Source of the DNA: Citrobacter freundii
GTDB taxonomy: Bacteria; Pseudomonadota; Gammaproteobacteria; Enterobacterales; Enterobacteriaceae
Length of the DNA stretch: 64,000 nucleotides
NCBI RefSeq assembly: GCF_011077955.1
Contig: NZ_JAALBX010000002.1
Span: 124,001 to 188,000, forward strand
Reading direction: 5' to 3'
Both the position numbers and the translations under genes were made by a program. The notes below the pieces were generated by a model. That model was not told where the DNA came from and made no database searches. It saw only the letters and a program-made list of their open reading frames with translations. Shown one piece after another: positions 8,763-54,647 of this stretch. The first letter of the stretch is position 1. Each line of letters begins with the position of its first letter.

Positions 8763-10091
8763 ATGAGTTCTCTCTACCAGTCAATGATCGCGGTTATTGA
8801 GCATTCCATCACACCGCTGGCCGGGCGCCTGGGGCAGCAAAAGTATGTTATTGCGATCCGCGACGGTTTTACTGCCGCGCTGCCGTTTATGATTATCGGC
8901 TCGTTTATGCTGGTGTTTATTTTCCCGCCGTTTTCTGCAGACACCACCAACAGTTTCGCTCGCGGCTGGCTCGATTTCTCTCAGACCTACCGCGAACAGT
9001 TGATGCTGCCTTTTAACCTCAGCATGGGCGTGATGACGTTTTTTATTTCAGTCGGCATCGGCGCCAGTCTGGGGCGGCAGTTTAATCTCGATCCGGTGAT
9101 GTCGGGTCTGCTGGCGTTTATGGCATTCTTGCTGGTCGCCGCGCCCTATGCTGATGGCAAAATCTCCACCCAGTATCTGTCAGGGCAGGGGATTTTTACG
9201 GCGCTGATTACGGCGATTTACTCGACCCGTGTCTACGCCTGGCTTAAGCAGAACAACATTACTATCCGCCTGCCAAAAGAAGTGCCGACCGGTGTTGCGC
9301 GCTCCTTTGAAATTCTGATCCCGGTTGTGGTGGTGATGGGTACCCTGCATCCTCTGAATCTGTTCGTGGAAGCCCAAACCGGCATGATCATCCCGCAGGC
9401 TATTATGCATCTGCTGGAGCCGCTGGTTTCCGCGTCCGATTCCTTACCGGCAATTTTACTGTCTGTGCTGTTGTGTCAAATCTTCTGGTTTGCGGGCATC
9501 CACGGTTCGCTGATTGTTACCGGCATCATGAACCCGTTCTGGATGGCCAACCTGTCTGCAAACCAGGCGGCGCTGGCGGCGGGCACTGTACTGCCTCACG
9601 TATACCTGCAAGGTTTCTGGGATCACTATCTGCTGATTGGCGGCGTAGGTTCAACATTACCGCTGGCCTTCCTGCTGCTGCGTAGCCGCGTCACGCACCT
9701 GCGTACCATCGGCAAAATGGGCGTGGTGCCGAGCTTCTTTAACATCAACGAACCGATCCTCTTCGGTGCGCCGATCATCATGAACCCGATGCTGTTCATT
9801 CCGTTTGTGTGTGTGCCGCTCGTTAACGCCGTACTGGCGTATACCGCGACCCGTCTGCACTGGCTGCCGCAAGTCGTTTCACTGACGCCGTGGACCACAC
9901 CTGCCCCAATCGGTGCGTCCTGGGCGGCAAACTGGGCGTTTAGTCCGGTGGTTATGTGCCTGATTTGTATGGTGATGTCGGCCCTGATGTATCTGCCTTT
10001 CCTGCGCGCTTATGAACGTTCGCTGATGAAAACTGAAGAGCAGAAAGCGCAAAGCGCCGCGCCGATGGCTGAACCGGCCAAAAGCAACTGA
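8763..10091 (+). CDS. PTS system lactose/cellobiose-family IIC permease
   Basis: 442 aa, about ten membrane segments, ChbC-like from ITPLAGRLGQQKYVIAIRDG through the family motifs WFAGIHGSL and FFNINEPILFGAPI, where the NEP segment takes part in sugar binding. The start at 8763 has AAGGGG upstream; an earlier in-frame ATG at 8733 overlaps the IIB gene and is unlikely. It translocates and, with IIB, phosphorylates a beta-glucoside at the inner membrane. Confidence 0.93.
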   Translation: MSSLYQSMIAVIEHSITPLAGRLGQQKYVIAIRDGFTAALPFMIIGSFMLVFIFPPFSADTTNSFARGWLDFSQTYREQLMLPFNLSMGVMTFFISVGIGASLGRQFNLDPVMSGLLAFMAFLLVAAPYADGKISTQYLSGQGIFTALITAIYSTRVYAWLKQNNITIRLPKEVPTGVARSFEILIPVVVVMGTLHPLNLFVEAQTGMIIPQAIMHLLEPLVSASDSLPAILLSVLLCQIFWFAGIHGSLIVTGIMNPFWMANLSANQAALAAGTVLPHVYLQGFWDHYLLIGGVGSTLPLAFLLLRSRVTHLRTIGKMGVVPSFFNINEPILFGAPIIMNPMLFIPFVCVPLVNAVLAYTATRLHWLPQVVSLTPWTTPAPIGASWAANWAFSPVVMCLICMVMSALMYLPFLRAYERSLMKTEEQKAQSAAPMAEPAKSN

Positions 10092-26156: not shown

Positions 26157-26945
26157 ATGGGAAGACAAAAAGCAGTGATCAAAGCTCGTCGCGAAGCAAA
26201 ACGTGTGCTGAGACGCGACTCACGTAGCCATAAACAACGTGAAGAAGAATCGGTCACCTCGCTTGTGCAAATGAGTGGTGTTGAATCTATTGGGATGGCG
26301 CGAGAAGGTCGCGACGCCTCGCCAATAGTGGCGCGCACCGACGCGCAGGAGCTTTACCTCAACGCCATTGAGAATAAGAAATTGATATTCGCCACTGGCG
26401 AAGCCGGATGCGGCAAGACGTTTATCAGCGCGGCTAAAGCCGCAGAGGCCCTGATCCATAAGGATGTCGACAGGATTATCGTGACCCGCCCGGTATTACA
26501 GGCCGACGAAGATCTCGGCTTTTTGCCCGGCGACATCTCCGAGAAGTTTGCCCCGTATTTTCGCCCCGTCTATGACGTGCTGGTGAAACGCCTCGGCGCA
26601 TCCTTTATGCAGTACTGCCTGCGACCGGAGATTGGTAAGGTTGAGATCGCGCCCTTTGCTTACATGCGCGGTCGTACCTTTGAGAATGCGGTGGTGATTC
26701 TGGACGAGGCTCAGAACGTCACAGCGGCCCAAATGAAAATGTTTTTAACCCGCCTCGGGGAAAACGTCACGGTTATCGTCAATGGCGATATCACCCAGTG
26801 TGATTTGCCATCTGGAGTCCGCTCAGGATTGAGCGATGCGCTCGAACGTTTTGATGATGATGAAATGATTAGCGTAGTGCGCTTTAGCAAAGAGGATTGT
26901 GTGCGTTCGGCCCTGTGCCAGCGTACGCTGCTCGCCTACGGCTAA
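26157..26945 (+). CDS. phoH: PhoH-family ATPase
   Basis: 262 aa. Basic N-terminus (MGRQKAVIKARREAKRVLRR), Walker A GEAGCGKT at 81-88, Walker B VVILDEAQN. Phosphate-starvation-induced ATPase with predicted RNA-related function. The ATG at 26157 has AAGGTG upstream; a GTG three codons earlier is also in frame, with a TAA upstream of that closing the frame. E. coli has efeUOB between putP and phoH; these are absent here. Confidence 0.93.
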   Translation: MGRQKAVIKARREAKRVLRRDSRSHKQREEESVTSLVQMSGVESIGMAREGRDASPIVARTDAQELYLNAIENKKLIFATGEAGCGKTFISAAKAAEALIHKDVDRIIVTRPVLQADEDLGFLPGDISEKFAPYFRPVYDVLVKRLGASFMQYCLRPEIGKVEIAPFAYMRGRTFENAVVILDEAQNVTAAQMKMFLTRLGENVTVIVNGDITQCDLPSGVRSGLSDALERFDDDEMISVVRFSKEDCVRSALCQRTLLAYG

Positions 26946-40190: not shown

Positions 40191-42227
40191 GTGAGTATGG
40201 ATATCAGCGATTTTTATCAAACGTTTTTTGATGAGGCTGACGAACTGTTAGCTGATATGGAGCAGCATCTGCTCTCATTGGCGCCTGAAGCTCCGGATTC
40301 GGAGCAACTAAACGCCATTTTCCGTGCTGCTCACTCCATAAAAGGCGGTGCCGGCACATTCGGTTTTAGCGTGCTGCAGGAAACCACCCATTTAATGGAA
40401 AACCTGCTTGACGAAGCCCGGCGCGGTGAGATGCAACTTAACACCGATATTATCAACCTGTTTTTGGAAACCAAAGATATCATGCAGGAACAGCTCGATG
40501 CGTATAAAAGTTCTGTAGAGCCCGACGCTGCCAGCTTCGAATATATCTGCCAGGCCCTGCGTCAGCTGGCGCTGGAAGCGAAAGGTGAAACCAGTGCCGA
40601 AGCGGCTCCGCTTACACTGGTGACGGCGCAAGCGCAAACGTCCGCATCTGTCCCTGCGGCCGGCGATGGAAAGCTGCGTATAACCTTAAGTGGCTTAAAA
40701 GCCAGCGAAGTGACATTGCTACAGGATGAGTTAGCCAACTTAGGCGAGCTGAGCGATGTTGTGCAGGGCGAAAGTACCCTGACGGCTACCCTGGCGACCA
40801 GCGCCAGTGCTGATGATATCAGCGCGGTACTCTGTTTCGTGGTGGAACCTGAACAGATATCCTTTGGTGGCCCTGCAATCGACGCCGCGCCTCAGCAGTC
40901 CGTAGCTGAGCCTGTTGCGGTTGCTGAAGAACCTGCTGAAGAGGTGGTTGAAGCGCCTGCCGCTCCGCGTACTGTTGTTCCGCTGGCTGTCGTTCCGGCA
41001 CGTGCTGAACGTGAGCAGAAGCCCGCGCCGCGCGAGCGTGAAAACACCAGCATCCGCGTAGCGGTTGAGAAAGTCGATCAGTTGATAAACCTGGTAGGTG
41101 AACTGGTGATCACCCAGTCCATGTTAGCCCAACGTTCTAACGAACTGGACCCGGTGACGCACGGTGACTTAATCAGCAGCATGAGCCAACTTGAGCGTAA
41201 CGCCCGCGATCTGCAAGAGTCGGTGATGTCGATTCGTATGATGCCGATGGAGTATGTATTCAGCCGCTTCCCGCGTCTGGTACGCGATCTGGCGAGCAAG
41301 CTCGGTAAGCAAATTGAGCTTACGTTGCAGGGCAGTTCGACTGAACTCGACAAGAGCCTGATTGAACGCATTATCGATCCGCTGACTCACCTGGTGCGTA
41401 ACAGCCTCGATCACGGCATTGAAATGCCAGAAGACCGCGAGGCCGCTGGTAAATCGCCGGTGGGTAACCTTATCCTTTCCGCAGAACACCAGGGCGGTAA
41501 TATCTGCATCGAAGTTACCGACGACGGCGCAGGGCTGAATCGTGGCCGTATTCTGGCTAAAGCGATGTCCCAGGGGCTGCCGGTAAGTGAAAACATGACC
41601 GATGAAGAAGTCGGTATGCTGATTTTCGCACCGGGTTTCTCTACCGCTGAAGTGGTGACTGATGTCTCCGGCCGCGGCGTGGGAATGGATGTGGTGAAAC
41701 GAAATATCCAGGAGATGGGCGGCCACGTTGAAATTCAGTCCAAACAGGGCGTAGGCACTACGATTCGTATCCTGCTGCCGCTGACGCTTGCCATCCTTGA
41801 CGGCATGTCCGTGAAGGTGAATGAAGAAGTCTTCATTCTGCCGCTCAACGCGGTAATGGAATCGTTACAACCGCGTGAAGAAGAATTACACCCGCTGGCA
41901 GGCGGCGAGCGCGTACTGGAAGTACGTGGTGAATACCTGCCGCTGGTGGAAATGTGGAAAGTGTTCAATGTAGAAGGCGCGAAAACCCAGGCCACCCAGG
42001 GCATTGTGGTGATCCTGCAAAGCGCTAACCGTCGCTACGCACTGTTGGTCGATCAGTTAATTGGTCAACATCAGGTCGTGGTGAAGAACCTTGAAAGTAA
42101 CTACCGTAAGGTGCCGGGTATTTCTGCCGCCACCATTTTAGGTGATGGGAGCGTGGCGCTGATCGTTGATGTATCCGCGCTGCAAAGTATTAACCGTGAA
42201 CAACGTATGGCGCAGACAGCCGCCTGA
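40191..42227 (+). CDS. cheA: Chemotaxis histidine kinase CheA
   Basis: 678 aa, somewhat longer than E. coli CheA (654), the extra length being in the P2 and its Ala/Glu/Pro-rich linker (about residues 130-285). P1 carries phospho-His48 in AAHSIKGGAGT; P3 dimerisation, P4 ATPase (LVRNSLDHGIE, DDGAGLN, GFSTAE, SGRGVGMDVV) and P5 CheW-like domains follow. Start is GTG. Phosphorylates CheY and CheB under receptor control. Confidence 0.97.
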   Translation: MSMDISDFYQTFFDEADELLADMEQHLLSLAPEAPDSEQLNAIFRAAHSIKGGAGTFGFSVLQETTHLMENLLDEARRGEMQLNTDIINLFLETKDIMQEQLDAYKSSVEPDAASFEYICQALRQLALEAKGETSAEAAPLTLVTAQAQTSASVPAAGDGKLRITLSGLKASEVTLLQDELANLGELSDVVQGESTLTATLATSASADDISAVLCFVVEPEQISFGGPAIDAAPQQSVAEPVAVAEEPAEEVVEAPAAPRTVVPLAVVPARAEREQKPAPRERENTSIRVAVEKVDQLINLVGELVITQSMLAQRSNELDPVTHGDLISSMSQLERNARDLQESVMSIRMMPMEYVFSRFPRLVRDLASKLGKQIELTLQGSSTELDKSLIERIIDPLTHLVRNSLDHGIEMPEDREAAGKSPVGNLILSAEHQGGNICIEVTDDGAGLNRGRILAKAMSQGLPVSENMTDEEVGMLIFAPGFSTAEVVTDVSGRGVGMDVVKRNIQEMGGHVEIQSKQGVGTTIRILLPLTLAILDGMSVKVNEEVFILPLNAVMESLQPREEELHPLAGGERVLEVRGEYLPLVEMWKVFNVEGAKTQATQGIVVILQSANRRYALLVDQLIGQHQVVVKNLESNYRKVPGISAATILGDGSVALIVDVSALQSINREQRMAQTAA

Positions 42228-42245
42228 GCTTAGGAATATATGCAA

Positions 42246-42749
42246 ATGACCGGTATGAGTAATGTAACCAAGCTGGCCGGAGAGCCGTCTGGCCAGGAAT
42301 TTCTGGTATTCACCCTCGGCGACGAAGAGTACGGTATCGACATTCTGAAAGTGCAGGAGATCCGTGGTTATGATCAAGTAACCCGTATCGCCAACACACC
42401 TTCGTTTATCAAAGGCGTGACCAACCTGCGCGGCGTTATTGTCCCGATTGTCGATTTACGTATTAAATTCAATCAGGAAGACGTGGAATACAACGATAAC
42501 ACAGTGGTGATTGTGCTGAATTTTGGCCAGCGCGTAGTGGGTATCGTTGTGGATGGCGTGTCTGACGTATTGTCGCTGACGAACGATCAAATCCGCTCTG
42601 CGCCGGAATTCGCCGTGACGCTGTCGACCGAATACCTGACCGGCCTCGGCGCGGTAGGCGATCGCATGCTGATCCTGGTGAATATCGAAAAACTGCTTAA
42701 CAGCGAAGAAATGGCACTGGTAGACAGCGCCACCGCTCGCGTAGCGTAA
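42246..42749 (+). CDS. cheW: Chemotaxis coupling protein CheW
   Basis: 167 aa from [19 protein letters not shown], nearly the same as E. coli CheW ([31 protein letters not shown]). Links CheA to receptors. An ATG at 42240 is closer to the AGGA at 42232-42235, so two codons more are possible. Confidence 0.96.
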
Positions 42750-42754
42750 TCATT

Positions 42755-42791
42755 AAAAAGCCCGGCGAGCGTCGCTTGCCGGGCTTTTTTT
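42755..42791 (+). terminator. Terminator after cheW
   Basis: AAAAAGCCCGGC and GCCGGGCTTTTT with an 11-base loop, followed by more T. Ends the motA-cheW transcript. Confidence 0.9.
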
Positions 42792-44280
42792 ATGTGTCTT
42801 GCGCTATCTGGTTATCATTCAACGCCACCCGGCGATTGCATTTCCCGCATGCCGATAATCGTTGAGCGCGCCTGACAAATTATACCCCCCGCAAACCTGC
42901 TTATTTTCTCCTCCGGTAAAGGCCATAAATCCATCGCTGCCAGGCGCCAGTAATTTTATCGTTATGGTATGAACCCTGCCGGTAACAGGCGTTTGTAGCG
43001 CACGGCATGCGTCAGGGAGTTCACCCCATGGCACTGCATGCACACGCCTCTTAATTCGCGACCGACACCGCTTACATGAATTCCTCCATGGCCCAGCTCG
43101 CGCGACCTTTGTCTGGCAAAACCGGGAAAGCGAGGCTGCGCGCAAAATACAGGCATGGCTGCCACGTACGGGCTATGCACGTGATTCCCAGCGCATATCG
43201 CTTTGAGCCTGTGAGGCGTTTCTCAACGGGTTTCGCGTTATGCTTGCGCGCAGGGGCTGGCCGGTTAAGCGTTAACGTGCTAATCCAGCCGCTGACTGGT
43301 CTCGTGTAGCGATGTAATCGCAGTCGTACTGAGGAAAACCGCGATGAACAAAAGGGCTTATCCCTCGGCCAGGAATACGGGTTTTAGCCCCCACGAGTTG
43401 GTGGAAAAGTGGTGACCGGGCTTACAATAAATATCTTTCACGCGTTAAGAATAAGTCTCAGTCTGTCGGGTGTGATGATAAGACCAGTCACCTGATTATG
43501 ATGCTCAAGAAATAAGCGCCTGCTTTTATAGAAAAAATATTATCTACATCGCTTAAGCGCGTGATTAATTCGCAACCGAATGTCGGGGATTTGGTCATTA
43601 TTCTCACCACCAAAACGGGCACGCGTATTAACTATTTTGGCCAGAAGAAACGTTGAACGGATATATCAGGTTAATACAGCAGTAAACAAATAGGTTACTA
43701 AGTATTGTTGCGGAAATAATAATCGGTTACCGGGTAGCCAATTGTTCACCCAGGCGTTAAAAGTAATACAGGTTAATCAACATACTATTCTGTCGCGGGT
43801 CACATTTGTTGTAAATGCGCGGCTTCGCTTAGCGAAAATGTTAGCCGGGTAATGAAAATCGTATAAAAAATAAATCGATTTTTTGAACGGCGGTTATCTT
43901 CACCGGCTGATTTTCTTACTGGTAGATATCGGTATTGGGTGGCAGATCTCAAAAATAAATAAAGCCATGGGCAGTGCAAAATTAGCAATTAAAGAAATCT
44001 GTAAAACCTATTGCTGTTACTGAACAACGCCACGCATCTTTAATCACAGGTGATAACGGTGAGGTTAATTTAACCTCTTTTTTTTGCGCCATTACGTCGC
44101 AAGTGTAGGCAGCACGCGCCTTGCGACAGAATGTAGTGATAAAGGATAACGGTGCGACGCGTGTCGTTCCGCCTTCAACAGCGCGTCAGCGGACGACACT
44201 TGCCGGAAAAAAATAGCGCTTCGCTTCATGGCTGGCGCGCTTTTTAAGCTCATCGGAGGTGTAGCAAATTGCGTTAGGGA
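42792..44280. other. Gene-poor, apparently decayed interval between cheW and tar
   Basis: About 1.5 kb; in E. coli this gap is near 0.15 kb. No intact gene. On the plus strand a frame open from 43348 to 43653 is broken only by TAA at 43513-43515, giving protein-like pieces (SGDRAYNKYLSRVKN; NVGDLVIILTTKTGTRI), and another frame is open at 43874-44020. A minus-strand frame at 42819-43145 is possible but unsupported. A sigma-28 -10 octamer GCCGATAA lies at 42851-42858 with no -35, and a good terminator closes the stretch at 44061. I cannot name the lost gene or genes. Confidence 0.6.
44061..44085 (+). terminator. Orphan terminator upstream of tar
   Basis: GAGGTTA-att-TAACCTC followed by eight T. 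No intact gene precedes it on the plus strand, so it probably belonged to the decayed gene in the cheW-tar interval. Confidence 0.8.
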
Positions 44281-44282
44281 AA

Positions 44283-44309
44283 TAAAGTTCCTCAACCATG
44301 TGCCGATAA
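44283..44309 (+). promoter_or_regulatory. Sigma-28 (FliA) promoter of tar
   Basis: TAAAGTT-N12-GCCGATAA, a perfect match to the sigma-28 consensus, 37 bp before the tar start. Confidence 0.92.
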
Positions 44310-44345
44310 CAGCGACAGTAGACCTGCTAATAAGGCGTTATCTGT

Positions 44346-46022
44346 ATGCTAAACCGTATCCGTGTCGTCACACTGTTATTGATAGTTTTGGTCGTCTTTG
44401 CCCTACTGCAACTTATTTCCGGCGGTCTGTTTTTCTCGTCGGTGAAACAAACCCAGGAAACGCTTGGCATTTCCCATGAGCTGCGCATTCAGCAAGCGGA
44501 ACTGAACCAGACCTGGGAAATGATGTTACAAACGCGTATCAACCTGAGCCGTTCAGCAGCACGCATGCTGATGGATCCTAATAATCAACAAAGCAGCGCT
44601 AAAACCGATTTACTCAACAGCGCCAAAACGTCGCTGAAAAATGCACAAGACCATTTCGCCGCTTTTCAGAGCAGCCATGTCAATCTGGAAGCACTTACTC
44701 AGTCTATAGCCGATGTAGAAAAAGCGTATCAGGACTATAACAGCGCGCTGACTGAACTGGTGCAGTTTCTCTCAACCGGAAATATGGATGCTTATTTTGC
44801 TCAGCCAACCCAGGGAAAACAAAATGCGCTCAATACGGCTATCAAAGCGTATGACGCGTTAAACGTACAACTTTATCAGGCCTCGTATGAGGGCAGTAAA
44901 TCAGACTACCGAATGGCGCTCTGGCAGTTGGGTTCGCTTGCTGTCGCGTTACTGATTGTTGTTACGCTGGTATGGGTCGGGATGCGTTCCGCCTTGCTGC
45001 AACCGCTTAGCAATGTGATTAACCATATTCGCAAAATTGCCAGTGGCGATCTTACCCCAACCCTTACCGTTTCCGGGCGTAATGAAATCAGCGCGCTTGC
45101 CGAAACCGTTCGTCATATGCAAAAGGAGCTTATCGACACGGTCACCAGCGTGCGTGAAGGTTCTGATGCGATTTATACCGGCACCAGTGAAATCGCCGCC
45201 GGGAACAATGACCTGTCTTCCCGTACTGAGCAGCAGGCCGCGGCGCTTGAAGAAACCGCTGCCAGCATGGAGCAGTTAACCGCGACGGTGAAACAGAACG
45301 CCGAGAACGCGCGTCAGGCATCGTTACTCGCACTCAGCGCGTCAGAAACGGCCGGGCGTGGCGGTAAGGTGGTGGACGGTGTGGTGAAAACCATGCATGA
45401 CATCGCCGCCAGCTCTAAAAAGATTTCCGATATTACCAGCGTCATCGACGGCATCGCCTTTCAGACCAATATTCTCGCCCTTAACGCCGCCGTAGAAGCG
45501 GCCCGCGCAGGCGAGCAGGGTCGGGGTTTCGCCGTCGTCGCAGGGGAAGTGCGTAACCTTGCCAGCCGCAGCGCCCAGGCCGCAAAAGAGATCAAAGGAT
45601 TAATAGAAGATTCCGTATCACGCGTAGATACCGGCTCGGCGTTGGTCGAGACGGCGGGCGATACCATGTCTGACATCGTCAATGCCGTAACCCGCGTTAC
45701 CGACATTATGGGTGAAATCGCCTCGGCGTCGGATGAACAGAGCCGTGGCATTGATCAGGTGGCGTTGGCGGTTTCCGAGATGGACCGCGTTACCCAGCAG
45801 AACGCCTCGCTGGTTCAGGAATCTGCCGCCGCGGCGGTGGTTCTGGAACAGCAGGCCAGCCTGCTTACACAGGCGGTATCCACGTTTCGTTTGCACACAC
45901 AGTCAGCAGCACACCAGGACGTGAATACAGGCCGGGTAGAAAACCCAAAAGAAGACGCACCGGTCGTGCCTACACGTAAAGCTCTTGCCGGCGGCCAGAG
46001 CGAGAACTGGGAAACATTTTAA
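44346..46022 (+). CDS. tar: Methyl-accepting chemotaxis protein, aspartate-type (Tar)
   Basis: 558 aa. TM1 at 7-30, periplasmic four-helix sensor, TM2 near 190-212, HAMP, signalling domain with the invariant tip ([20 protein letters not shown]) and C-terminal NWETF that docks CheR/CheB. The sensor keeps R64, R69 and R73 and FAQPTQG, and the first 80 residues ([25 protein letters not shown]) are closer to Tar than to Tsr. The position before cheR agrees. Ligand is likely aspartate; maltose sensing is not predictable. Confidence 0.9.
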
Positions 46023-46041: not shown

Positions 46042-46501
46042 GCGCGTTTAGGTGAGTAGGGGCGCGGATTCGCTGTCGTCGCCTGGGGAAGTCTGTACTC
46101 AGGCGAGCCGCAGCGCACAGGCCGCGAAAGAAATTAACGTGTTGATCGACGAGTCGATTTTCCGTGTGCAGCAAGGGTCTCAATTGGCGGTCACCGCCGC
46201 CAATACGATGACTGAGATCGTACGTTCGGTGACGCAGGTCAACGAGATGATGGGGGAGATCGCCTCGGCTTCTGATGAACAGCGCCGTGGCATTGAGCAG
46301 GTCGCTCAGGCGGTAAGCCAAATGGATCAGGTGACGCAGCAAAACGCCGCGTTAGTAGAAGAAGCCGCTGCCGCGACCGGTTCGCTGTCAGGTCAGGCCG
46401 AGCGTCTTACCACGCTGGTATCGGCATTTAATATAGAAAATATTGTCCCTGAGGACAAAGACATCGCACTCACCCTGCAACGGGTGCCGGTTTTAACCTG
46501 A
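46042..46501 (+). pseudogene. tap: Remnant of a second MCP gene (probably tap)
   Basis: The sequence encodes only the last third of an MCP signalling domain. It begins ARLGE[12 protein letters not shown], where TAG replaces the Gln codon of AGEQGRGF; then one inserted base after GRGFAVVA shifts the frame before [17 protein letters not shown], which runs to 46501 through [20 protein letters not shown] and TQQNAALVEEAAAA. The N-terminal sensor, membrane segments and hairpin tip are missing. It ends without a CheR-binding pentapeptide. It lies between tar and cheR, where E. coli has tap. An ATG at 46052 could still express 149 aa, but nothing supports this. Confidence 0.9.
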
Positions 46502-49550: not shown

Positions 49551-50675
49551 CTATTTAATTTCCATTTTGACCGTGACGTTACCCTCATACTCTCCTGCGG
49601 CAGGCGGCGCATCTTTGGTGCCCACCGGCGCGGCAGTCATTTTTATATGGCCATTTCCGTCCTGATCCAGCGTAACGGGAAACTCCACGGAGCCATCGAG
49701 TACCACATTATTATCGTTTTCATCAAACATCCGCACGCCAACATCATCCCGGCCAATCATTTTGGCAATCAGGCTGTTACTGCCTTCAACCACCCCCTGA
49801 TCGGCGGAAAGCATCAGCTTAATTTTATCCGAAGTGCCTTTTGCGTCAGGATCGTCGCAGTGATAGCTAATGTCGACATCCCTTAGCCGGTATCCCGAGG
49901 GAATTTTCCCTTTCTGCATAAATTGCGGGGTATTGACCTCCCCTAAATCGATTTCAATCGTACTGCCTTGATTGATAGTGCAACTGAGCGGGGCGGTAAT
50001 CAGACCGCTGAGCGTGACATCGGAAACATGTTGCATATCCGCCTGGGTGCAGGCGCTGCTGTAATAGAGGCAGGCGTAATACTGTGCCACCACGGTCGGC
50101 GGAATGGTTTCGCTGCCAAATATTGGCCGCGTAATATAAAAGTTAACGCTCACCGTGTTCCAACGGAATTGCCTTTTCGTCGTCGAACCGCCGGAGGGAC
50201 GGGTATCATCGCTGCATACACTGGCGGTTTTCTCGTTATTTTTTATATCTAGCCTGCTTTCCATTTGATCGGGCGGCGTGGGATAAACGTAGATGGGTAT
50301 CAGCGTCAGATTGTTATTACTTGCAATGGCATCGGTATAACCACTCACAATCGCATCAAGATGACTGGTCAGGTAACCGCGACCGCTCCCACCGGCAGGA
50401 AGCGGGCTTCCGACCGAGGTAAATTCGTATACATAGGTCGACGCGCTTATACCGCCGGTACATTTACAGTTTGCCTGCTGGGAGGGACCGTCACCACTGA
50501 GGTAATTAACCTGAAAGGTTGAGCTTATTTGATTTTCCGCCGCGCTTAATTCTCGGTTGTACACGGCGTTGTAATTCACCGGCGCGGCAAAGCAGTTTTT
50601 CAGGGCAGTGGCCTGACTGGCTAGTGGTACCAGCGCAAGTAAGGCAAGATAAAGTAATTTCAGCCAGCTTCTCAT
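49551..50675 (-). CDS. Fimbrial tip adhesin / minor subunit
   Basis: 374 aa with signal peptide (LALVPLASQATA). The N-terminal half (about 27-225) is cysteine-containing (NCFAAPV, NCKCTGG, YACLYYSSAC) and likely the receptor-binding lectin-type domain; the C-terminal part (from SGLITAPLSCTINQGSTIEIDLG) is a pilin domain ending in a beta strand (GNVTVKMEIK). This two-domain design is typical of FimH/YehA-type adhesins. It is the last gene of the four-gene leftward operon. The receptor cannot be predicted. Confidence 0.8.
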   Translation of the reverse strand: MRSWLKLLYLALLALVPLASQATALKNCFAAPVNYNAVYNRELSAAENQISSTFQVNYLSGDGPSQQANCKCTGGISASTYVYEFTSVGSPLPAGGSGRGYLTSHLDAIVSGYTDAIASNNNLTLIPIYVYPTPPDQMESRLDIKNNEKTASVCSDDTRPSGGSTTKRQFRWNTVSVNFYITRPIFGSETIPPTVVAQYYACLYYSSACTQADMQHVSDVTLSGLITAPLSCTINQGSTIEIDLGEVNTPQFMQKGKIPSGYRLRDVDISYHCDDPDAKGTSDKIKLMLSADQGVVEGSNSLIAKMIGRDDVGVRMFDENDNNVVLDGSVEFPVTLDQDGNGHIKMTAAPVGTKDAPPAAGEYEGNVTVKMEIK

Positions 50676-50710
50676 CGCTGTCCCTCAGTAAGAAAAAGTA
50701 AGAAAGTGGA

Positions 50711-53230
50711 TTACTGACATAGTGCGTTGGCAAAAATAATGCGTTTTGACGGGTCGTCAGGCAGAGAGACGTCTGCGTGACAACGCTGTTTCGCCTCATT
50801 TCCCCACGCTATCGTTAAAGAAAAATGGTCTTGCACACCGGAAAGATAAAGTGTGCCGCTATCATCAACGATGCCGTTGATGCCCGTTTCGTCGACCGTC
50901 GCCAGGGCGCCGAAAGGCACAGGGCGTCCATCTGCGCGTTTTAATGAAATCATCGCGCGATGGCCTACCCGGGCATTAAAATGCGCCTCAACAGCCGCAT
51001 TACGTCCGGGAATAACAGAGATTGCCGTGTCGGTACTGTCCACATTGTCAGGCAGGCTGGTGGTATCAATGCGGATGACGTTTTCCTGATAGGGACTGAG
51101 CGAGGGAATAATGGCGTTACCAAACCAGTCGGTTTGCACGCCTCGCTGATTAGTAAAACGAATGCCCGAAGCGCCGTTGGCGTTTACGATCGCGAATTCA
51201 TTGCCAAGGGGCTGCGAGAGCGTGACACCGCCGGGATGCGCGACTATGCCGCCATTTAAACCGTAATTAAGTTGCTTAGAATTATCAGAAGAGGTGTAGT
51301 AACCGGCGTTCATATCCGCATAACGCGAACGGTAGCTGCCATAAAGACTGCTGTTATCAGTCCCGCCATGATTAGTATGGCTTTGCTGCACGGAATAGCT
51401 GAGTCTGTTGTCGTCAAGCATCGTACCGGAAAGGCCGACGTACTGACTGGTATCTTTGCCTTTGGCGCTACTGATGTTGTAGCTCGCCCAACTGTTAGGC
51501 AACCATTGTCCCAATGGCACGCTAATGCCAAAAGAAAGCATCTGGTCGCTCGGCGAATCGCTGGTTTTGCTGTAGCTATAGGCCAGATTGACGTTCACGC
51601 CGTAAATGGCAGTATTAATGCCCGCCGACAGGCTTTTTTCAGTACGGTCGCTTCCCCAGTAATCCTGCTGATAACCATTAAGATAAACACTACTGTCGAG
51701 TACCGTTTGGCTGATGCTGACCTGAAATCTGCTGCGTTTATTGTAATTAAATGACCAGTCGTCTTCGTTGCCTGAATAGTGTTTGTTGGCATCCGCAAAA
51801 CTGTAGTAACCACTGGTGGAATAACGATAACTCGCAAGGGTGAAATTGGTGTCGGTGGTTTCTATCTTCCCGGTATACATCAACCGATACGATTGCCCGG
51901 ATTTTTGTTCGTCGTTATCAAGGGTGGCGCGTGAGTGGGTGACATCCGCAGAGATAGAACCTAAGGTGCCGAGCGCGATGCCCGTCCCCAGGTTCGCGGC
52001 AGTATAGTTTTCAGCGCCGGTTACGCCGCCAAAAAGCGTCAGGTAGTTATTAATGCCGTAAATGACGGTCCCCTGACTAAACAGAGGATCGTTGGCATCC
52101 TGGCCATTATCCGGCTGATACCGCCCGGCGGTGAATTCATATTTCATATGACCGGGGCGCTGCATAATATTGATGGCTGAGTAAGGTTGTGTGAAATGAT
52201 GCTCCGAACCGTCAGCTTCTTTTATAGTGACCTCTAAATCGCCGCTATTCGTTGTGGAGTACAGATCGTTTATTTCGAAAGGCCCCGGGGCCACGGTGGA
52301 CTGATAAATCAAATACCCATTCTGGCGGACCGAAACTTCTGCGTTTGAATTAGCGATACCACGAATCGTGGGAGCGTAACCCCGCTGGCTATAGGGAAGC
52401 ATCTCCTCATCCGAGGCGATATTCACACCGCGGTATTGCAGACTGTCGAAGACTTCCCCACGGGTATTATTTTGACCAGCCGTAAACTGCGCTTTAAGCA
52501 GTTTTATATCATGCTGGATCCAGGTATTGATGGCTTCCCAGGATTGACCTTCTTCAGCGTTATTCCAGGTCGAATAGTTGCGAATCCGCCAGCCGCCGAG
52601 GTTAGCGCCGTTTCGCAAATTGAGGTACTGATTTGTCGAATGATGATTGTCGTCGTCACGCTCGGTTCCTGAGAAAGAATAATCAGTAAACAACACCGCA
52701 ACGCCATCATCCCAACGTGAAGGATCGATATAGCCATTACTGTTTCTGATAATCGCGGCCTGGGGAAAACTGAGTGATAGCGTCAGGGTATTGAAATCAA
52801 AATCCGCCGAGGCGAAAGGAATATAGTGGCTAACCGGCTCCGTGAGCGGCTTTTCAGGCGGCAGGGATGCAAGTGCTGGATAATCATCCACTTTTACGCC
52901 CCACTGGCGCAGCATAGCGGGCGTTAACTGCGGTTGAAGCCCGCCTTTTTCGCCACTGATATAGGTAATGCTTTCGTCTTTCAGGGACTGCTTATTCAGC
53001 CGAATCTTTGAAAGATACGTTCCCGGGAGTTGTGCGTTACTTTTTGAGAACAGCGCTAAATCAACGTCCTCTCGGGATAAATTGTCGCCCTCAAGGGACG
53101 ATGGTTCGAAGTAATATTCCCGGGCATAGAGATAATCGGACGCGAAAAAAAGCGCGCCGCTAAGGCAATGCAATAGCGCTTTGTAGCGCCAGCCAGTGTA
53201 ATAATGATTTTTGGCAAACGGCGAAACCAT
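50711..53230 (-). CDS. Fimbrial outer-membrane usher
   Basis: About 839 aa. N-terminal chaperone-binding domain (YYFEPSSLEGDN-LSREDVDLALFSKSNAQLPGTYLSKI), 24-strand barrel with plug domain, and C-terminal domains ending VSLPDDPSKRIIFANALCQ. Assembles and secretes subunits. The ATG at 53230 fits AGGGAG spacing better; a GTG at 53242 overlaps the chaperone stop (GTGA) and would add four residues. Confidence 0.92.
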   Translation of the reverse strand: MVSPFAKNHYYTGWRYKALLHCLSGALFFASDYLYAREYYFEPSSLEGDNLSREDVDLALFSKSNAQLPGTYLSKIRLNKQSLKDESITYISGEKGGLQPQLTPAMLRQWGVKVDDYPALASLPPEKPLTEPVSHYIPFASADFDFNTLTLSLSFPQAAIIRNSNGYIDPSRWDDGVAVLFTDYSFSGTERDDDNHHSTNQYLNLRNGANLGGWRIRNYSTWNNAEEGQSWEAINTWIQHDIKLLKAQFTAGQNNTRGEVFDSLQYRGVNIASDEEMLPYSQRGYAPTIRGIANSNAEVSVRQNGYLIYQSTVAPGPFEINDLYSTTNSGDLEVTIKEADGSEHHFTQPYSAINIMQRPGHMKYEFTAGRYQPDNGQDANDPLFSQGTVIYGINNYLTLFGGVTGAENYTAANLGTGIALGTLGSISADVTHSRATLDNDEQKSGQSYRLMYTGKIETTDTNFTLASYRYSTSGYYSFADANKHYSGNEDDWSFNYNKRSRFQVSISQTVLDSSVYLNGYQQDYWGSDRTEKSLSAGINTAIYGVNVNLAYSYSKTSDSPSDQMLSFGISVPLGQWLPNSWASYNISSAKGKDTSQYVGLSGTMLDDNRLSYSVQQSHTNHGGTDNSSLYGSYRSRYADMNAGYYTSSDNSKQLNYGLNGGIVAHPGGVTLSQPLGNEFAIVNANGASGIRFTNQRGVQTDWFGNAIIPSLSPYQENVIRIDTTSLPDNVDSTDTAISVIPGRNAAVEAHFNARVGHRAMISLKRADGRPVPFGALATVDETGINGIVDDSGTLYLSGVQDHFSLTIAWGNEAKQRCHADVSLPDDPSKRIIFANALCQ

Positions 53231-53238
53231 GAAGAGGC

Positions 53239-53931
53239 TCACTCCCTTGAAAGCGGAGCGGTATTGGGTGTTGAGGCATTACCGAAATCCGTTATGCATC
53301 GCCATGTCACAGTATTGCCAACCGTCTTCGCCGCAACGGGGATCGTCGCTGTTGATTTCGGGGCGACCATATCTGCTTTTTTAACCGGGACGGCACCCAC
53401 AGAAAGGCTGTCAAAGACGCTATAAAAATCGCCATCATTAATAATCTGTAATTGCGTTCCCATCAGTCTGAAACGCAAGTTTTGGCAGGTTTCGCCGGGC
53501 GTTCCCTTTAAAGACTCTGGCCGCCAGAACATTTTTAGACGGGTTTTAAAAATCAAACGCAGTTTGTTTTTAGTTTCATCTTCTTTGGCAGTTGCGGGGA
53601 TGGTGCGAACGTTTAAATAAAAAAGGGACTCCCGATCCGTGGGTAATGGCACGCCATTCCAGGTAATGCGTAAACTTTGCTCTTTTTGCGGATCAAGACG
53701 GAACAGTGGCGGTGTAATGATAAAAGGGCCACGTGTTTTTTCATCGCCATTATCTGTCCAGGATTGAACTAACCACGGCAGGTCTTGCTCTTTATTCACA
53801 AGCGTCAGCGCAACTTCTTTGGCCTTTTCTTCATAAATAATACGGGTTCTACCAATTTGTATGCCTGCGGCATGGCAATTAACCATAGGCATAAAAGCGA
53901 TTAAATAAAAAAACAAAATGATTATGCGCAT
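53239..53931 (-). CDS. Periplasmic fimbrial chaperone
   Basis: 230 aa with signal peptide (FMPMVNCHA). Two immunoglobulin-like domains; GIQIGRTRIIYEEKAKEVALTLVNKE holds the conserved Arg of the subunit cleft, and PPLFRLDPQKEQSLRI is the PapD-family signature. Lends a strand to fold subunits before usher delivery. Confidence 0.93.
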   Translation of the reverse strand: MRIIILFFYLIAFMPMVNCHAAGIQIGRTRIIYEEKAKEVALTLVNKEQDLPWLVQSWTDNGDEKTRGPFIITPPLFRLDPQKEQSLRITWNGVPLPTDRESLFYLNVRTIPATAKEDETKNKLRLIFKTRLKMFWRPESLKGTPGETCQNLRFRLMGTQLQIINDGDFYSVFDSLSVGAVPVKKADMVAPKSTATIPVAAKTVGNTVTWRCITDFGNASTPNTAPLSRE

Positions 53932-54065
53932 GAATATTACCCTGCTTCATTTTAAAACGGCAATAAATCAGAAGTAACTCTGATTTATTGCGCGATTTTG
54001 ATAAGCAATGTCAATTAATCAAAGAGTAAGATTAATTTCTTTGGCCTATGTATCGTATGTAATTA

Positions 54066-54647
54066 TTAACGATAAAGAATATTTACCGTTAAGTCGGCAT
54101 CGGCAGGGCCTGCTGTGACGGTATCTGAGAATGATTTATATCGTGCATTGAAGTCTGCGCTAATATCGGTGGTCGCTTCTTTTGCAAGCTCAATCCACAC
54201 CTGATCTTCACTCCCGTCAAATGCAATATACGTTTGGCTATCACTAATCGGTGAGACAGCGATGCCGACGCCCGTCGCGGCGGTGGTGCCAGGTAAGGTG
54301 GTAATGCTGCTGACATCCAGTAACGTCTTAGATGCCGTCAGTGTGGTGGTACCATTAAAGGTTAGTTGTACCGACGGCAAGCCTTCGCTTGTTGCAGGGC
54401 ATCCTGTTAACTTAATCGAGAAGGGAATAAGCGGAGACTCGTCGCCTGATTTAGCAAATAACGTGGTGGGATAGGTTCCTAATGGCACGGTGCTGTCATG
54501 ACCAGTATCGCCTTTAATTTCACAAGAAGGGGTAATTATTTGGCCCGTAAAATGGATTTTGCCAGCACCCGTTTCATCGGCAAATGCCTGAGTAACGATA
54601 CCGGTAAAAAAAAGCGCGGTGTAAAGCGTGAATTTTACTGTTTTCAT
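54066..54647 (-). CDS. Major fimbrial subunit
   Basis: 193 aa with signal peptide (VTQAFA). GKIHFTGQIITPSCEI and the Cys in LTGCPATSEG form the conserved pilin disulfide; it ends with a Tyr-containing terminal strand (ADLTVNILYR). First gene of the operon, 134 bp before the chaperone; the gap may limit downstream expression relative to this subunit. The order subunit-chaperone-usher-adhesin is the same as E. coli yehDCBA; relation to a named fimbria is not certain. Confidence 0.88.
   Translation of the reverse strand: MKTVKFTLYTALFFTGIVTQAFADETGAGKIHFTGQIITPSCEIKGDTGHDSTVPLGTYPTTLFAKSGDESPLIPFSIKLTGCPATSEGLPSVQLTFNGTTTLTASKTLLDVSSITTLPGTTAATGVGIAVSPISDSQTYIAFDGSEDQVWIELAKEATTDISADFNARYKSFSDTVTAGPADADLTVNILYR

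Follow-up and report, generated by a model that had tools for sequence, protein, structure and literature searches.

Remnants of an accessory gene pair at an Atlantibacter cheW–tar insertion site that has very probably decayed

The interval between cheW and tar in the 64,000-nucleotide stretch analyzed here (the window, part of contig 22 of a 4.5-Mb genome) is very probably an old Atlantibacter insertion site for accessory genes, degraded in the present genome through deletion. Judged by homology, its left third is a gene graveyard with what is left of two ordinary accessory genes that form a pair, one encoding an exported nucleotidase and the other a neighbor labeled p434, a 434-aa protein encoded divergently from the nucleotidase and elsewhere named "cytoplasmic protein." From the sequence evidence below, the interval most likely yields no product, and transcription of tar most likely starts at its own sigma-28 promoter, which is intact. 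This account corrects the attractive but unsupported reading of the interval as a lost sigma-28 chemotaxis gene. The Atlantibacter cheW–tar gap emerges as a variable site that has gained and lost a nucleotidase pair and a fimbrial operon; apart from a scrap of carB and an A+T-rich piece, its content is ordinary. Among the papers listed in literature searches, none concerns the cheW–tar interval, as judged by title.

Gene content of the cheW–tar gap

The gap runs from the end of cheW at 42749 to the start of tar at 44346 and measures 1,596 bp, compared with 144 bp in Escherichia coli SMS-3-5 (cheW end 1826, tar start 1971 of L042), in agreement with the tenfold excess over E. coli recorded in the first-pass annotation. 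That annotation had also proposed a comparison of close relatives, for which our set comprised four other genomes of the same genus, Atlantibacter (G001–G004), and which revealed variable gene sets, with the nucleotidase and p434 genes whole in A. subterranea. The latter genome, G001, is A. subterranea ZYL01 (p434 locus 100% identical). Between cheW and tar, it carries the nucleotidase gene (minus strand), the divergent p434 gene, and a fimbrial operon encoding two spore-coat-U subunits, a chaperone, an usher, and a tip protein. G002 contains the nucleotidase, split by a frame change, and p434, with nothing else; G004 contains the fimbrial operon alone. The 275-bp gap of G003 retains a scrap, 79 bp long, of the fimbrial tip gene (score of 51, reached by 0/300 mononucleotide shuffles, the best of which scored 18.5). 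Among the five genomes of the genus, the window's included, there are five different contents at this site, and the same-genus gaps span 275 bp to 8.5 kb. The cheA gene of G002 is also broken into several frames (L012, 3–1487), suggesting sequence errors in the assembly; because of this, the frame change in the G002 nucleotidase may likewise reflect sequence quality. The borders of the site are recognizable (Table 1). On the left, the cheW terminator aligns with and is largely kept in G001, G002, and G004 and is different in G003.

Table 1. Features of the cheW–tar gap, in window coordinates
Feature	Position	Strand	Basis or remark
cheW intrinsic terminator, left border	42755–42789	+	16-pair stem, U run
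5'-Nucleotidase 3'-end remnant, codons about 462–515 of 518, with indels	42797–42962	−	tblastn, DNA alignment
GCCGATAA octamer, judged fortuitous	42851–42858	+	Within antisense nucleotidase remnant, without TAAA upstream, not conserved
p434 remnant piece 1, codons about 104–126	42960–43030	+	tblastn, DNA alignment
carB-like 32-bp scrap between the two p434 pieces	43053–43084	+	31/32 bases identical to own carB
p434 remnant piece 2, codons about 359–422	43113–43298	+	tblastn, DNA alignment
A+T-rich stretch, about 890 bp, no convincing homologue or clear coding signal	43299–44190		42.8% G+C
Terminator-like stem and T run, modest	44061–44085	+	Stem 44061–44077, 7 pairs, 3 G-C
Conserved tar upstream region, right border	44239–44345	+	82–86% identity to four same-genus genomes starts about here
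tar sigma-28 promoter, TAAA-N15-GCCGATAA	44283–44309	+	Pattern search of window

The nucleotidase of G001 is a 518-aa protein encoded on the minus strand, with Metallophos (PF00149) and 5_nucleotid_C (PF02872) domains. Its residues 462–504 match window positions 42834–42962 by tblastn (72% over 43 aa, E 3e-15), and the DNA alignment of the remnant covers 42797–42953 with a score of 74. At the DNA level, homology extends over 42750–42953 for G001 and 42812–42953 for G002. Homology to the C-terminal 5_nucleotid_C domain is present in the window remnant by way of its match to the G001 gene; on its own, the remnant matches no Pfam family. An intact nucleotidase with a metallophosphatase domain is absent from the site, and a search of the window's own genome returned no nucleotidase match at E ≤ 1e-100. 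The protein pieces had gone unrecognized in the first-pass annotation, which overlooked this minus-strand homology; it is the homology that identifies the interval. The broader proposal of a decayed gene interval is borne out by homology to genes occupying the same site in same-genus genomes.

The p434 pieces stand in the correct order and on the correct strand beside the nucleotidase tail, and the resulting layout is that of G001 minus its middle. For piece 1, the DNA score was reached by 0/500 shuffles with each of two queries; for piece 2, by 0/500 with the G001 query and 6/500 with the G002 query. Scored as a colinear protein pair, the two pieces were equaled by 0/1000 dinucleotide shuffles with each query (55.0 versus at most 42.3 and 58.9 versus at most 43.1). 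An intact p434 frame is absent from the window, with codons about 126–359 gone and one stop within each piece, and the nucleotidase and p434 pieces alone yield no Pfam or NCBIfam family score. The whole G001 protein matches no Pfam family at E 0.001 and its faint resemblances to transposase zinc ribbons all score under the NCBIfam cut-offs.

The arrangement is consistent with two deletions. The first would have fused nucleotidase codon ~462 to p434 codon ~104, and the second would have taken p434 codons ~126–359, leaving a filler, 32 bp of it a copy from carB; the right part, rich in A+T, may be further unrecognizable wreckage or another acquired piece. We infer the order and timing of these deletions, and the comparison covers one strain of the window's species.

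Beyond the genus, 295 sampled genomes of the family included 20 with a p434-like protein (E ≤ 0.001), 18 with the nucleotidase (E ≤ 1e-100), and 16 with both. The loci examined were stretches from 11 foreign genomes of those lists and one from the window's own genome. Both genes occurred in nine of the 11 foreign loci, divergently in 9/9, and the nucleotidase alone in two. Neither cheW nor tar was present in the flanks of the 11 foreign loci, which spanned about 0.1 to 9 kb, and neither was among the annotated neighbors in E. coli UTI89 and Citrobacter. One weak cheA match (24%) in the foreign-locus flanks likely represents another kinase. The UTI89 pair (UTI89_RS21925 and RS21920) and the pair on the Citrobacter freundii plasmid NZ_CP151862.1 (WKF27_RS25240 and RS25235) belong to the same families, lie head-to-head, and are found near metL and metF; relative to G001, the nucleotidases are 71% and the p434 proteins 39–40% identical (tblastn). 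By contrast, A. subterranea and G002 have the pair in the cheW–tar gap, and the window, unlike UTI89 and Citrobacter, retains it cut down to three fragments. The pair is accessory and known elsewhere in the family; among the loci examined, it lies between cheW and tar in Atlantibacter only. A. subterranea and G004 have the same cheW–tar insertion site occupied by a spore-coat-U type chaperone-usher operon, of which the window, unlike these two genomes, holds no significant remnant. Remnants of pseudogenes at variable insertion sites in the chromosome form a general class in enterobacteria. The present remnants are likewise whole in some relatives and fragmentary in the window genome, and they differ in that a scrap of the genome's own carB sits between two of the fragments.

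The carB scrap and the A+T-rich stretch

DNA searches of the window's own genome matched the scrap to carB with E values of 2.8e-7 and 7e-8; at E ≤ 10, besides self and carB, nothing fell under E 0.8. Agreement over the same 32 bases in the carB genes of the sister genomes is lower, at 29 (G004), 27 (G001), 27 (G003), and 26 (G002). The simplest account would be short templated or captured filler at a deletion junction. A more specific version, to which we give rather less than even weight, is that end-joining with copying repaired the damage, placing 32 bp of the distant carB between the two pieces of the broken p434, with the A+T-rich orphan possibly a larger acquired patch. If true, a bacterial deletion would here have received a templated filler insertion at its junction. 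The scrap gives a small hint of the way in which deletions in bacteria may be sealed.

The A+T-rich stretch accounts for about 890 of the 1,596 bp and has no counterpart in the insert of any relative, with no match in the four same-genus genomes. Its G+C content of 42.8% compares with 53.5% in the cheA/cheW region (41000–42749), 55.2% in the left part of the gap (42750–43298), and 53.7% in tar. These features, together with the terminator-like stem at 44061, would suit the independent acquisition of a foreign gene or small element, now broken or still the source of a short product or of an RNA, with its end at that stem, a reading that we regard as possible yet doubtful. Against it, the stretch has no credible Pfam, NCBIfam, or PHROGs match and no Rfam match at gathering score, and its longest open frame is equaled or exceeded in 275/300 shuffles (see below). 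DNA searches among phages, plasmids, and E. coli gave no match, and no credible relative was found in 391 other genomes of the family sample and 246 genomes of the order sample, which overlap and were scored for two candidates per genome; three matches of 24–44 bp to 0.5–0.6-Mb genomes (E 2e-4 to 5e-4) were judged to be chance. The same judgment applies to a single Pfam zinc finger (E 0.5) among ten window pieces compared with Pfam and NCBIfam profiles, and to two foreign matches (E 0.004 and 0.009) of one 55-aa piece searched against the 295 family genomes.

Specific origins were considered and rejected. For a phage origin, PHROGs gave one match at E 0.14 and phages one at E 0.6, otherwise none; among viral contigs, 23 stretches fit a pattern and none was confirmed. 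For a plasmid origin, there was nothing save six Rhizobium matches at E 0.8, judged to be chance. A known small RNA in the interval was dismissed with the lack of any Rfam match at gathering score; eight of the ten sub-threshold matches in 42700–44400 overlap the cheW terminator. When the A+T-rich part was aligned with five fimbrial genes on both strands (60 shuffles each), the score was reached by 3–59 shuffles in nine of ten tests (the lowest, 3, for the usher on the plus strand), while the tenth, a 26-bp minus-strand match to the chaperone gene (43584–43608), was reached by 0/60. In a two-strand comparison with the p434–tip gene part of the G001 insert, 9/60 shuffles scored as high; a fimbrial-operon origin is therefore not claimed. 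A tip-gene remnant at about 44193–44238, suggested by a first alignment, failed its shuffle control: 171/500 and 279/500 shuffles scored as high, and no fimbrial remnant was demonstrated in the window.

Sigma-28 signals, the broken frame, and the terminator-like stem

The first-pass annotation had read the gap as the leavings of a lost sigma-28-driven gene, citing an octamer at its left end, a frame broken by a single stop, a strong terminator at its right end, and the tar promoter beyond. The sigma-28 (FliA) promoter consensus is TAAA-N13..17-GCCGATAA. The octamer is indeed present at 42851, one of nine in the 64-kb window, a count above chance for the window as a whole (100 shuffles averaged 3.1 and reached 7 at most). 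Two of the nine, at 44283–44309 (plus) and 8893–8919 (minus), have TAAA 13–17 bp upstream, and the 42851 octamer is not one of them; the bases aligned to it in G001 and G002 are TCAGATAA. A sigma-28 promoter at 42851 is unlikely because the octamer, the one element that speaks for it, is part of the antisense nucleotidase remnant, lacks a properly spaced TAAA, and is not conserved. The tar promoter had been correctly placed at the right end of the gap, and both of its boxes are kept in 5/5 genomes of the genus. The other perfect TAAA-N15-GCCGATAA pattern, at 8893–8919, lies within an ORF on the opposite strand that we take, by eye, to encode a PTS permease.

The broken ORF exists as described, with a TAA at 43513 within 102 codons (43348–43653, that one stop included), but its length is no greater than chance: a one-stop frame that long occurs in 234/300 dinucleotide shuffles of 43260–44200. 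Of those 300 shuffles, 275 contain an uninterrupted frame no shorter than the longest one in the stretch, at 67 codons. A codon-usage score was trained on 24 window genes, cheW and tar among them and the control fimbrial gene not. With this score, the left part of the gap shows no codon signal (139/200 shuffles score as high), the right part is reached by 12/200, and the controls cheW, tar, and the fimbrial gene by 0/200. Coding as gauged by ORF length or codon score was rejected on these figures. The stem at 44061 is real and is followed by a T run, although "strong" was a generous term for it: with a centroid energy of −7.5 kcal/mol, it is matched by 14/200 shuffles of the 46-nt stretch (z −1.76).

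That a sigma-28-driven gene, such as an extra chemoreceptor, once spanned 42851 to the 44061 stem and has since decayed appears highly improbable. The octamer and the stem are both present, tar close by has a sigma-28 promoter, and the right-half codon score is slightly above that of shuffles. Set against these are the context of the octamer and its replacement by TCAGATAA in G001 and G002, and the recognized pieces, which belong to the nucleotidase and to p434; the plus-strand p434 is divergent from the nucleotidase in every examined foreign locus that has both, with no cheW or tar in the flanks of the 11. None of the ten gap pieces searched matched a chemoreceptor or, in Pfam or NCBIfam, anything credible. 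The ORFs are no longer than expected by chance, the terminator is barely beyond chance, and nothing joins the two into one gene. Just as improbable is a role of the interval as a functional spacer or a region that regulates tar: the tar promoter at the right end is intact and conserved, but the remainder is conserved in neither length nor content, as the range of same-genus gap sizes attests. The decayed insertion site remains the preferred reading.

Other features of the window

Behind tar, the tap gene is cut to codons about 397–514 in E. coli numbering (window 46085–46438). In each of the four same-genus genomes, tar is followed by a stop-to-stop frame of 534 residues that matches Tap, and the Tap chemoreceptor has probably been lost by deletion in the window genome. 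A distant paralogue of p434 reaches into the left edge of the window (positions 1–612; G000:C22:123359–124612, minus strand) as a 425-aa open frame (E 4e-37), adjoined by genes that, named by eye, we presume to be radical-SAM-like, sulfatase-like, and porin-like. Directly downstream of cheZ, a separate fimbrial cluster occupies 49551–54647 on the minus strand; it includes one Pfam Fimbrial protein, and its other ORFs are, presumably and again by eye, usher-, chaperone-, and subunit-like. Finally, the Yersinia small RNA family Ysr251 (RF02855) has a full-length match at 26747–26940 on the minus strand, with 142.9 bits and an E value of 1.3e-37.
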